From positions 2,418,001 through 2,482,000 of the forward strand of contig AP017375.1 of the NCBI GenBank assembly GCA_002355455.1: 64,000 nucleotides of DNA, given 5' to 3'. Every line of letters begins with the position of its first letter. Position 1 is the stretch's first letter. The stretch comes from Stanieria sp. NIES-3757. Lineage in GTDB: Bacteria > Cyanobacteriota > Cyanobacteriia > Cyanobacteriales > Xenococcaceae. Made by a program: the position numbers and the translations under genes. The notes beneath the pieces are model-generated. The model saw only the letters and a program-made list of their open reading frames with translations, was not told the origin of the DNA and searched no databases. Shown in pieces: positions 13,671-17,318 of this stretch.

Positions 13671-14771
13671 ATGTTATTGCTGATTGGAGATATTGGTGGC
13701 ACTAAAACTATCTTGCGTCTGATCGAAGTAGCAGAGCAAGTTCAATCTGTTGAAACCATTCAACAAACTAAGTATCGTGGCACCAAAACTATCTTGCGTC
13801 TAATCGAAGTAGCAGAGCAAGTTCAATCCTTTGAAACCATTCAACAAGCTAATTATCCTAGTAGTTCCTTTTCCGATCTGGTTCCGATGGTAAAACAGTT
13901 TTTAGCTACTGTAGAATCAAAAGTACCAAAAAGAGCTTGTTTTGCGATCGCAGGACCAGTGGTTAATAATATCTCTACTTTAACTAATCTTAATTGGCAT
14001 TTGGATAGTCAGCGATTAGAACAAGAATTAAATCTAGAAAAAGTCGATCTAATTAATGATTTTGCTGCTAATAGTTATGGGGTTTTAGCTTTAAAAGACT
14101 CTGATTTATATCCTTTACAAGTAGGTCAAGCACGAGAATTTAGCCCAATCGCTGTACTTGGGGCAGGTACGGGTTTAGGAGAAGGATTTTTAATACCTCA
14201 AGGTAAATTTTATCAAGTTTTTGCTACCGAAGGAGGACATACAGATTTTGCTCCTCGTAACGATTTGGAAATGCAACTTTTACAATATCTTCAACATAAA
14301 TTAAATATAGAACACATTTCTGTTGAACGAGTCGTATCTGGCCAGGGAATTGTCTCAATTTATCAATTTTTACGAGATTCTAATTATGCTGCTGAATCTC
14401 CAGAAATCAGCGCAAAAATTTTCAATTGGGAACAGCAAAAGAGTCCGAAAATCGATCCTGCTGCAATTATTTCTCAGGGCGCAAGAGTTTCAGGCGATCG
14501 CCTTTGCCAAAAAACAATGGCAATGTTTGTTGAAGCTTATGGAGCCGAAACTGGTAATTTAGCTCTAAAATTATTACCTTATGGTGGTATTTATTTAGCT
14601 GGCGGTATTGCAGCTAAAAACATAGATCTGATGTCAGACGGTCGTTTTTTAGCTAGCTTTAAACAAAAAGGTCGACTAAGTTTTTTACTAGAGAATATTC
14701 CAATTAATCTAGTTACTAATGTCCAGGTAGGACTATTAGGCTCAATTTTATATGCTTTACAATTTGTTTAA
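13671..14771 (+). CDS. glk: Glucokinase with an in-frame N-terminal duplication
   Basis: This is a Glk-family (ROK-like fold) glucokinase phosphorylating glucose with ATP. It has the phosphate loop LIGDIGGTKT, the sugar-binding region FAIAGPV / LINDFAA, VLGAGTGLGEGF, and the glucose-contacting TEGGHTDFAPR. At 366 residues it is longer than the usual 335-345. The excess is a 27-residue tandem duplication (residues about 10-63) that repeats GTKTILRLIEVAEQVQS, so the first strand and loop occur twice; only the first copy keeps the DIGG context. It is downstream of the DUF924 gene with a 5-base gap. Whether the duplicated loop disturbs catalysis is unknown. Confidence 0.93.
   Translation: MLLLIGDIGGTKTILRLIEVAEQVQSVETIQQTKYRGTKTILRLIEVAEQVQSFETIQQANYPSSSFSDLVPMVKQFLATVESKVPKRACFAIAGPVVNNISTLTNLNWHLDSQRLEQELNLEKVDLINDFAANSYGVLALKDSDLYPLQVGQAREFSPIAVLGAGTGLGEGFLIPQGKFYQVFATEGGHTDFAPRNDLEMQLLQYLQHKLNIEHISVERVVSGQGIVSIYQFLRDSNYAAESPEISAKIFNWEQQKSPKIDPAAIISQGARVSGDRLCQKTMAMFVEAYGAETGNLALKLLPYGGIYLAGGIAAKNIDLMSDGRFLASFKQKGRLSFLLENIPINLVTNVQVGLLGSILYALQFV
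13698..13859 (+). repeat. 81-bp tandem duplication within glk
   Basis: Copy 1 (13698-13778) and copy 2 (13779-13859) have the same length and differ at only about nine positions. The exact 81-base period keeps the reading frame. Several silent and missense differences show that it is not a sequencing artefact of today's copy. Confidence 0.9.
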
Positions 14772-15029
14772 TTGTTCATCATTAACTGCTATTGTTTTCT
14801 TAACTGAGATTTAAATATTATTTCCAGTTAAACAATTAGCAGATTTACTCAAAAATAATTAGTTTTTATGTTGATTTTAATATCCATAATATAATAACTG
14901 GTTAATTTAATTGCAATAAAGATATTAGTTACGAAGTTAATATTTATAACTTGACATTTATGTTTATAAATGTTAAATTTTATAGTTAATTTCAGCATAT
15001 TTAGCCTAATTCTAATTGTTTAATTAAGC

Positions 15030-15140
15030 AAATAGAAGCGGGGGAACCAAATTGGGGGCTTATCTTTATAGTTAACATAAAGAAGGACATCTCTCAGTCC
15101 TAGCCCGTCAGCTAACCTCGTCGGCATTGAGAGGAAACTG
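15030..15140 (+). ncRNA. Cyclic-di-AMP riboswitch (ydaO-yuaA leader)
   Basis: The conserved blocks of this riboswitch class occur in order: GCGGGGGAACCAA (15038-15050), TTGGGGGCTTATC, then AGCCCGTCAGCTAACCTCG (15102-15120). A closing helix is made by CTCTCA (15091-15096) and TGAGAG (15128-15133). The class binds c-di-AMP and usually turns off genes for cell-wall remodelling or osmolyte and K+ uptake. Here no gene follows closely: the next plus-strand gene starts about 660 bases on. Confidence 0.88.
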
Positions 15141-15221
15141 AAGAGGCAAAGACTTAAACAACTAAACCTCATCAGTATTCCTAACAGTTATTGTTCAGTT
15201 TTTGCTGTCAATTATTTCTGT

Positions 15222-15246
15222 AAGGGGAGTTGAAATGAACTTATAA
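15222..15246 (+). other. Ribosome-binding site and aborted start downstream of the riboswitch
   Basis: AAGGGGAG (15222-15229) precedes an ATG at 15235 by five bases, but the frame reads Met-Asn-Leu-stop (15235-15246). This is the position expected for the riboswitch-controlled gene. Either the gene has decayed or this is a leader mini-ORF. Confidence 0.5.
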
Positions 15247-15803
15247 ATTTTTATTAGTTAATAACTTTTAGATTAATCTAATTCCTAATAATTAAAAAAT
15301 TTTTTTGCCGAGTTATTAAAACTTTTTTGACTAAAAAACAAAATCGAATAGTCTTTTTATAATACTACTCAAAATTTTCAATATTTTTGGGTTCTAATTC
15401 TGTTGTACACAAAAACAATAAAACTTTGGTGTGGTTGATTTGTCAATCTCTTTAGGATATTAAAGGGATTTACTAGTTTTCGACACTGTTAAATTCTGTG
15501 TAGATAGGAAGCAGAAATGTTTTTAAATTTGAGTATAGTGAAATAAAAGACGAATGAATCAGGAAGTATTTCCAAGGATTTAGAGTAGCACAGGTCTTAC
15601 GATGTAGGCGAATTAATATAGTATCCAAGTCTGGTGTTTTTTCCTTTCAGTCTTGTTAAATAAGTTTTACAGACAAGATGATCTTTTGGTTTAATAACAC
15701 AAGAATAATTAGGATAATCATCACGCTCCATATTATAAGCTGTGCCAGCATCTAAAATTTGTAATTAATTGATCTATTTCACAAGACCTTTTTTACTCTT
15801 CTT

Positions 15804-17318
15804 ATGCAGATGATCGATCAAATCCAAAAATCAGAAGCGATTAGATTAGTTGAAACCGCTTCTCAAAATACGCCAATAATTATAGATTTTGATGAAACTT
15901 TATTTTTACGTAATTCTACGGCTGAATATCTCGATAGTCTTAGACCTAGAACATTAGGATTATTATTATTAAAATTTTTATATTTGATCGAACCTTGGAA
16001 TTGGTTGCCTGGAAGATTTAAAAATTCAAAAGTACAAGATTGGTTTTTAGTTATAGCCTCTACAATCTTTTTACCCTGGACGTGGTTTTTGTGGCAAAAG
16101 AAAGCTCGGCTATTAGCCAAACGACATCAAAATCTAGAATTGCTGGCTACTGTTAGTAATATTAATTCTCCGATTATAATTGCAACTATAGGATTTAATT
16201 TTATTATTAATCCGATTCTGAATCATATGCCAATTAAATATGATCGCGTAGTTGGTTGTAGATTTTGGCAAGGATTTAAAGATAGAACAGAAGGCAAATT
16301 GCTGATGCTCAAAAAAGTTTTATCTTCAGAACAACTTAAATCTGCAATGGTAATTACTGACTCTGAAGATGATTTGCCTCTGTTGCAAGAAGTAGCACAA
16401 CCTTGTTTAGTAATTTGGCCATCAGCGGAATATATTGCACCACTACAAAATGTTTATCTACCATTTTTATACCTAGAAAAAGTCAAACGGTTTGGGCAAA
16501 ATTACCTTGCTAAAGTAATTATTTGGGAAGACTTGCCGTTATTATTGTTAGCTTTTTCTTGGCAAGCTAATAATACAATCTGGCATGGTTTTAGTATTGT
16601 CTTATTTTTAATTTCTTTTTGGTGCATTTATGAAATAGGCTACTATGAAAACGATCTTGTTGCCGAAAAATACGAAGAAAAACCCAATTTATCGAGTAGA
16701 TATTATCAATACAAAGAAATAATGAAGACATGGAACCCGTGGGTTTGGTCTTTGATATTTGCAGTTTTAGGCGATATTTGTTTAAGCAAAGCTGAAGGGG
16801 TAACGATACCATTTAATTATGAATTAATATCTGCTCAATTAGAGTCATTCAATCCCCTGCTGTTACATTTAATATGTTGGATTGTTTTTTTATTAGCAAC
16901 CAGATTTTGTTTTTGGAGTTTCAACTACCTCAATAAACAGACAAGGACTTGGTTGTATTTATTACTTCAGTCTTTAAGGTATTACGGTTTTATAGCTGTA
17001 ACCCCAACTAATCTGATTGGTACTAGCTTATTGTCTAGCCATATACTCTGTCACTCAATGCTTTATTTGGTTTATCGCTATGGAGGCGGTAATGCAGAAA
17101 ATTGGCCCAAACAAGTACCAAGAGCAATGTTGCGTTGGTTTGTATTTATGTTTATTTTATCAGCGATCGCGATTGGGGCAAGAGATTTATCATTATGGTT
17201 AAATTTGCAAACTTGGGCAATTATGGTTTGGTGCGTGCTTCAAGACCGCAGACAAATTTTAAAATTTATCAGTCAAATCAAATCCGTTGTCAAAGATGGT
17301 TCAAATCAAGTAACTTAA
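15804..17318 (+). CDS. Membrane protein with N-terminal HAD-like phosphatase domain
   Basis: The 504-residue product starts with a haloacid-dehalogenase-type domain. Motif I is IIIDFDETLF (about residues 25-35), a Lys sits in the EGKLLMLKK stretch, and motif IV is ITDSEDDLPLL (about 190-200). A membrane hairpin lies between them. Residues about 235-500 hold eight or so hydrophobic segments and an ENDLVAEK stretch. This resembles HAD domains joined to UbiA-type prenyltransferases, but the Asp-rich UbiA motifs are not clear, so the second half is left unnamed. The start could be the ATG at 15804 or at 15810. It is the first gene after the riboswitch, though 660 bases away, and is followed by a 2OG oxygenase gene 57 bases on. 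Confidence 0.6.
   Translation: MQMIDQIQKSEAIRLVETASQNTPIIIDFDETLFLRNSTAEYLDSLRPRTLGLLLLKFLYLIEPWNWLPGRFKNSKVQDWFLVIASTIFLPWTWFLWQKKARLLAKRHQNLELLATVSNINSPIIIATIGFNFIINPILNHMPIKYDRVVGCRFWQGFKDRTEGKLLMLKKVLSSEQLKSAMVITDSEDDLPLLQEVAQPCLVIWPSAEYIAPLQNVYLPFLYLEKVKRFGQNYLAKVIIWEDLPLLLLAFSWQANNTIWHGFSIVLFLISFWCIYEIGYYENDLVAEKYEEKPNLSSRYYQYKEIMKTWNPWVWSLIFAVLGDICLSKAEGVTIPFNYELISAQLESFNPLLLHLICWIVFLLATRFCFWSFNYLNKQTRTWLYLLLQSLRYYGFIAVTPTNLIGTSLLSSHILCHSMLYLVYRYGGGNAENWPKQVPRAMLRWFVFMFILSAIAIGARDLSLWLNLQTWAIMVWCVLQDRRQILKFISQIKSVVKDGSNQVT

Follow-up and report, generated by a model that had tools for sequence, protein, structure and literature searches.

Features of the locus

The window, by which we mean the whole 64,000-nucleotide stretch of Stanieria sp. 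NIES-3757 DNA analysed here, carries a c-di-AMP (ydaO-yuaA) riboswitch aptamer on the plus strand at positions 14993-15141, between the glucokinase gene (glk) and a HAD-domain gene. In the Rfam search this aptamer matched RF00379 at 76.6 bits (E 5.1e-16), above the curated cut-off of 38 bits and over the full model (1-134) without truncation, and it is one of two Rfam matches over cut-off across the whole window. The original prediction, made from the letters alone, had named this covariance search as a test, and the class assignment was borne out by it; the start of the aptamer had been placed at 15030, however, 37 bases too far downstream, so that the 5′ strand of P1 (AGCC at 15003) is missed. 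The conserved core was defined as the 46 positions at which at least 90% of the 87 other matches scoring at least 60 bits agree, a definition that omits the weaker 14 of the 102 matches. The window aptamer departs at none of these 46 positions (at none of 42 when the level is set at 95%), in agreement with the earlier statement that all core blocks of the class are present. Judged by its sequence, the aptamer is structurally intact, and it would be expected to bind c-di-AMP.

Upstream of the aptamer, a promoter-like sequence, TTGACA-17-TAAATT with TG before the second hexamer, lies at 14951-14979 (plus strand) and agrees with the consensus at 10 of 12 positions; promoter-like matches in the scanned region were not above chance (11 found against 16.6 expected). 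A transcript starting about 7 bases past this site would begin just before the aptamer, near 14986. Downstream of the aptamer comes CTGTAAGGGGAG and then an ATG at 15235, the frame of which, ATG AAC TTA TAA, stops after three codons (MNL) and ends at 15246. The ribosome-binding site AAGGGGAG and this stub, recognised from sequence and alignments, together occupy 15222-15246 (plus strand), and AAGGGGAG begins about 80 bases beyond the end of the aptamer, just as originally described.

The next gene begins at 15804, 557 bases after the stub and 663 bases after the aptamer, in line with the gene-free stretch of about 550 bases noted before. The list of open reading frames holds no forward ORF of at least 50 aa beginning between 15247 and 15803, and none of at least 35 aa begins in the 662 bases that follow the aptamer. 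The first part of this stretch (15247-15464, plus strand) is AT-rich and common to the genome of another member of the genus, hereafter the sister genome (G001), with 152 of 210 aligned bases identical, which is no more conserved than the surroundings; no forward ORF of at least 35 aa begins within it. The remaining part, about 340 bases (approximately 15465-15803), has been added in the window relative to the sister genome, and holds on the minus strand, at 15615-15764, a probable remnant of an IS1-family transposase. On its own, the window fragment matches IS1 at E 0.16, which does not pass the cut-off, but an ORF of a relative (L121), which matches the window at 61% over 36 aa, reaches IS1 at E 3.2e-10.

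The gene that follows (15804-17318, plus strand) was assigned to the HAD domain PF12710 at E 1.3e-5 and 26.1 bits, just under the cut-off of 27. A search with an alignment of four proteins detected relatives at seven loci in named genomes, the nearest being that of Waterburya agarophytonicola KI4 at 60%, with others in Pleurocapsales cyanobacterium LEGE 06147, an uncultured Xenococcaceae and a Leptolyngbya; the contig search with the single HAD protein confirmed no relatives. On the other side of the riboswitch, the glucokinase frame carries near its start an in-frame near-repeat of about 25-30 residues (GTKTILRLIEVAEQVQS... twice, 13671-13860), which may be a recent tandem duplication.

The genome (5.46 Mb, two contigs) contains five RF00379 matches over the cut-off. 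The other four precede an NrtB-type permease gene, a gene of 78 aa, ExoD and ATPase genes, and a CitM/ArsB-type transporter gene, respectively, and the window aptamer is the only one of the five without a gene close behind. Among the 100 genomes searched, this one included, 54 carry a match at E of 0.001 or below and 53 carry one over the cut-off, and the survey described below covers all 102 listed matches, 98 of which are over the cut-off. Within these 98 the window has the longest gap to the first forward ORF of at least 35 aa (663 bases; median 94), but when ORFs of at least 100 aa are considered it is not extreme, since at least eight other matches lie farther away, including those in G072 and at G089:C1:1228123. 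None of 16 test proteins was recognised downstream of four other over-cut-off matches (L085, G089:C1:1228123-1228244; L025, G089:C1:796493-796622; L108, G094:C254:2711-2932; L026, G002:C186:46731-46883), which may have other genes behind them or may be orphans too.

Kinship with leaders of NrtB-type permease genes

BLAST comparison with the collected loci showed that the similarity of the intergenic DNA covers the whole span from aptamer to start codon, the codon included, in the NrtB-type leaders found in this genome, the sister genome and G070, while the match to G043, where an NrtB-like stub stands, ends one base before the start codon. When the sequence beyond the aptamer was compared, the best six of the 101 other matches were NrtB-type, and in the comparison of the tails the best five of 101 were all NrtB-type (G000, which is this genome, G068, G001, G091 and G048), these five scoring z 12 to 19 against simple shuffles. 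For the aptamer alone, the top score, 97.5, belongs to the sister-genome leader that precedes the small 78-aa gene, and the best NrtB-type leaders follow at 96.5 and 96.0. The spacing also agrees, as the stub ATG is base 94 after the aptamer and the base matching NrtB residue 1 falls at 81 to 161 in 28 NrtB-type leaders, a set chosen for an NrtB start within about 160 bases, so that leaders in which NrtB is farther away or truncated, such as those of G054, G062 and G084, are excluded.

At the start codon itself, the stub ATGAACTTATAA stands against ATGAATTTATCA at the NrtB-type leader of this genome and ATGAACTTATCA in G068. The typical NrtB-type start is ATG AAT TTA TCA (MNLS), and the MNL of the stub equals the first residues of the MNLS permease start in this genome, G001, G004, G019 and G068. 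The homology to NrtB is confined to these three codons; nothing beyond resembles nrtB, and no NrtB match was found within 3000 bases downstream of the window aptamer. Taken together, these alignments establish the window leader as a homologue of NrtB-type permease leaders past the aptamer, up to the start codon, and the MNL stub is probably the remnant of the start of an NrtB-type ABC permease gene. The idea that a regulated gene was lost here and a putatively working sensor left behind is supported as far as the sequence goes, and the leader homology and the stub point to an NrtB-type ABC permease gene as the one lost.

An intact nrtB-type gene is present elsewhere in this genome (G000:C1:3002072-3002902), and its three other relatives in the genome are at most 46% identical to it. 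The leader in the window could be a partial duplication of the leader of this intact gene, or what is left of a complete second gene. The BLAST extents made it look possible that the window leader was a chimera of two tandem leaders upstream of nrtB, with one contributing the promoter side and the other the start-codon side, but this idea was dropped because the 100 bases 5′ of the aptamer show no clear likeness to another leader (the best, in G082, has z 3.6). Tandem arrangements do occur: at G000:C1:3002992-3003676 (L037, 6993-7677) two RF00379 matches stand about 400 bases apart ahead of nrtB, with the 78-aa gene between them, and two such matches likewise lie close together in G001 and G019.

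Remains of a comparable kind were found in three other genomes. In G072 (L102, G072:C6:4027250-4027417) the last third of nrtD begins no more than 10 bases after a 64.2-bit aptamer, and in G080 (L117, G080:C7:1961235-1961414) pieces of nrtA follow an aptamer of 29.9 bits, which is under the cut-off; in both, the permease gene appears to be missing. In G043, between the aptamer and a CitM gene, lies a segment resembling residues 1-44 of NrtB (36%). These remains suggest that loss or exchange of the gene has happened repeatedly in such leaders.

Between the aptamer and the ribosome-binding site, a hairpin is predicted at 15131-15182 (plus strand), in which GGAAACUGAAGAGG pairs with CCUCAUCAGUAUUCC. 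RNAalifold gave almost no consensus on 29 tails (the 28 NrtB-type ones plus the window), perhaps because the loop lengths differ, and the hairpin was judged instead by the duplex of its arms in each sequence. The predicted arm-to-arm duplex of the window is -23.0 kcal/mol (z -2.8 against simple shuffles), as compared with -11.6 (z -0.2) in the sister genome; the whole tail of the sister, at -32.6, is predicted to fold more stably than that of the window, at -26.7, and into a different shape. Since the arms pair at z below -2 in just 11 of the 29 leaders, the window included, the hairpin is supported for the window and is not proved as a feature of the class. Pairing of a hairpin arm with the ribosome-binding site, which would make a translational switch, was suggested for many NrtB-type leaders in calculations without shuffle control, but is weak here, the window pairing (-9.3 kcal/mol, likewise without shuffles) being weaker than in 24 of the 27 other leaders computed.

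The same locus in the sister genome

The original prediction had proposed comparing the locus with relatives, and the sister genome proved informative. There too, glk and the HAD gene (78% identity) flank the locus, with a homologous stretch between them (L041), in which the stub reads ATG AAT TGA TAA and the alignment with the window continues past the stub. Since the stub and the sequence after it are common to both genomes, the coding body was missing by the time the two diverged, and the loss of the gene, for which a recent date had been offered as one option, is older than that.

The aptamer of the sister is ruined at this locus, departing at 15 of the 46 conserved positions (15 of 42 at the 95% level), and it was not reported by Rfam at E up to 1. 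The match at G001:C1:3174403 (29.8 bits), considered as the syntenic copy, is not one, as it precedes stress-protein and antiporter-like genes. The ruined leader also carries, at about 3285-3320 of L041, 27 bases absent from the window, which fold into a hairpin; a short way past it stands a T-rich run. Identity between the two genomes is 31/46 in the core and 74/107 in the other columns of the aptamer, and the background identity at 4-fold sites of three neighbouring genes is 83/133, 47/58 (part of glk) and 75/100; by this comparison of sequences the sister aptamer decayed at about the background rate.

The difference between 0 and 15 core changes has a two-sided p of 6e-5, on the assumption of equal drift and independent positions. 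With G004 as outgroup, the two lineages were found to have changed at similar rates in their genes: the HAD gene has 91 nucleotide changes in the window and 102 in the sister (residues, 31 and 39), and NrtA has 42 and 48 (residues, 8 and 9). With these rates balanced, the asymmetry in the core is best read as selection on the aptamer in the present species after the gene was lost; as the searched genomes include one other of the genus, this reading relies on a single species pair. In addition, the promoter stretch (14951-14990) is identical to the sister at 35 of 40 bases, more than in any of the other seven intergenic stretches compared (74% in the preceding part, and 70 to 78% in those that follow), and this hints weakly at a role of the transcript in both species. 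The two claims taken together, that the leader is of NrtB-type origin and that its aptamer was kept after the gene was lost, appear probable.

Possible present roles and comparison with known systems

In the explanation that we prefer, the locus would be the remaining 5′ leader of an NrtB-type permease gene, consisting of the promoter-like site, the aptamer, the hairpin, the ribosome-binding site, the ATG and three codons. Its coding body would have been lost before the split of the two species, or never copied if the leader is a partial duplication, and the sensor would then have been kept by selection in this species. The transcript would start near 14986, c-di-AMP would bind the aptamer, and binding would alter the fold of the region of the hairpin and the ribosome-binding site, in one direction or the other. 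That a sensor RNA outlived its gene and was kept by selection in one species, either through takeover by the HAD gene or as a ligand-responsive RNA without a gene, would be the most far-reaching interpretation, one that we put at just under even odds.

With the NrtB gene gone, the output may be the amount of RNA reaching the HAD gene at 15804. Control of this gene through a long leader, already suggested as one option, is a possible present function and the one we prefer, with a small RNA as the alternative; the preference is based on the identity of the promoter stretch, on a distance in the sister genome like that of CitM-type leaders, and on the lack of a terminator-like site. In the sister, the HAD gene starts about 380 bases after the ruined aptamer, and in CitM-type leaders the distances are mostly 300-580 (full range about 90-1060). 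No terminator-like site was detected by a simple scan of the plus strand from 15141 to 15804, and no relative of the HAD gene was found within 0.9-3 kb downstream of any of the 101 other RF00379 matches. We name the HAD gene as the target tentatively, the long leader being now interrupted by the probable IS1 remnant.

The locus might instead be a relic without present function, its core unbroken by chance or its use ended only recently, so that decay as in the sister is still to come. The absent coding body, the 557 gene-free bases, the entry of the probable IS1 remnant into the spacer and the ruin of the sister copy all fit this explanation, as do the relic-like leaders of G072, with its aptamer fused to the end of nrtD, and of G080, with a weak aptamer and pieces of nrtA. 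Against these stands the count of 0 versus 15 changes at the 46 core positions in lineages with about equal HAD and NrtA rates, and we regard a functionless relic as somewhat doubtful. A small RNA that responds to c-di-AMP and has no coding target in cis would agree with the promoter-like site, the intact aptamer and the long gene-free stretch, but for such an RNA one would look for a terminator-like site before 15804 and for conservation after the stub above that of the surroundings, and with neither of these seen we consider it unlikely. That the core was refreshed by gene conversion and not by selection is very improbable: four similar donor riboswitches do exist in the genome (78-83% identical over 108-153 bases), but the window aptamer has states in common with the ruined copy of the sister (CTTATC, AAGAA after A, and GGCATT) that are missing from the NrtB-type, small-gene and ExoD leaders of this genome (the CitM leader has GGCATT), so that conversion would require several short tracts placed on the core.

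Returning to a sensor kept after its gene was lost, the two species form a matched pair in which one leader is without its gene and the sensor has since been kept (here) or lost (in the sister). Such a pair makes the fate of a riboswitch after gene loss, and the takeover of leaders by unrelated genes, open to test. In the literature searched we found no report on riboswitches in Stanieria, and in the same literature, which left most subscription papers outside its scope, no description of a c-di-AMP riboswitch before an nrtB-type gene or of an orphan leader like this one in cyanobacteria, so that novelty is unproven. According to a review (PMC10117731), verified c-di-AMP riboswitches exist in cyanobacteria, the one in Synechocystis regulating slr0753, the gene for a putative chloride efflux transporter; earlier work linking cyanobacterial c-di-AMP riboswitches to osmoprotectants is cited in PMC5986932.

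The locus belongs to a known riboswitch class and has an unusual history. With RF00379 it shares the full match to the covariance model and all conserved core positions, but its first forward ORF of at least 35 aa lies 663 bases past the aptamer. With the NrtB-type leader of the same genome (G000:C1:3002992-3003127) it shares the aptamer, the hairpin arms, the spacing to the ATG and the ATG-AAY-TTA start; that leader is followed by full permease and NrtA-type genes, whereas the window keeps three codons. The Mn riboswitch before BP3410 of Bordetella pertussis (PMC8546581) is likewise retained ahead of a non-working gene, but there the exporter gene is present and inactivated by a small duplication, whereas in the window the coding body is absent.
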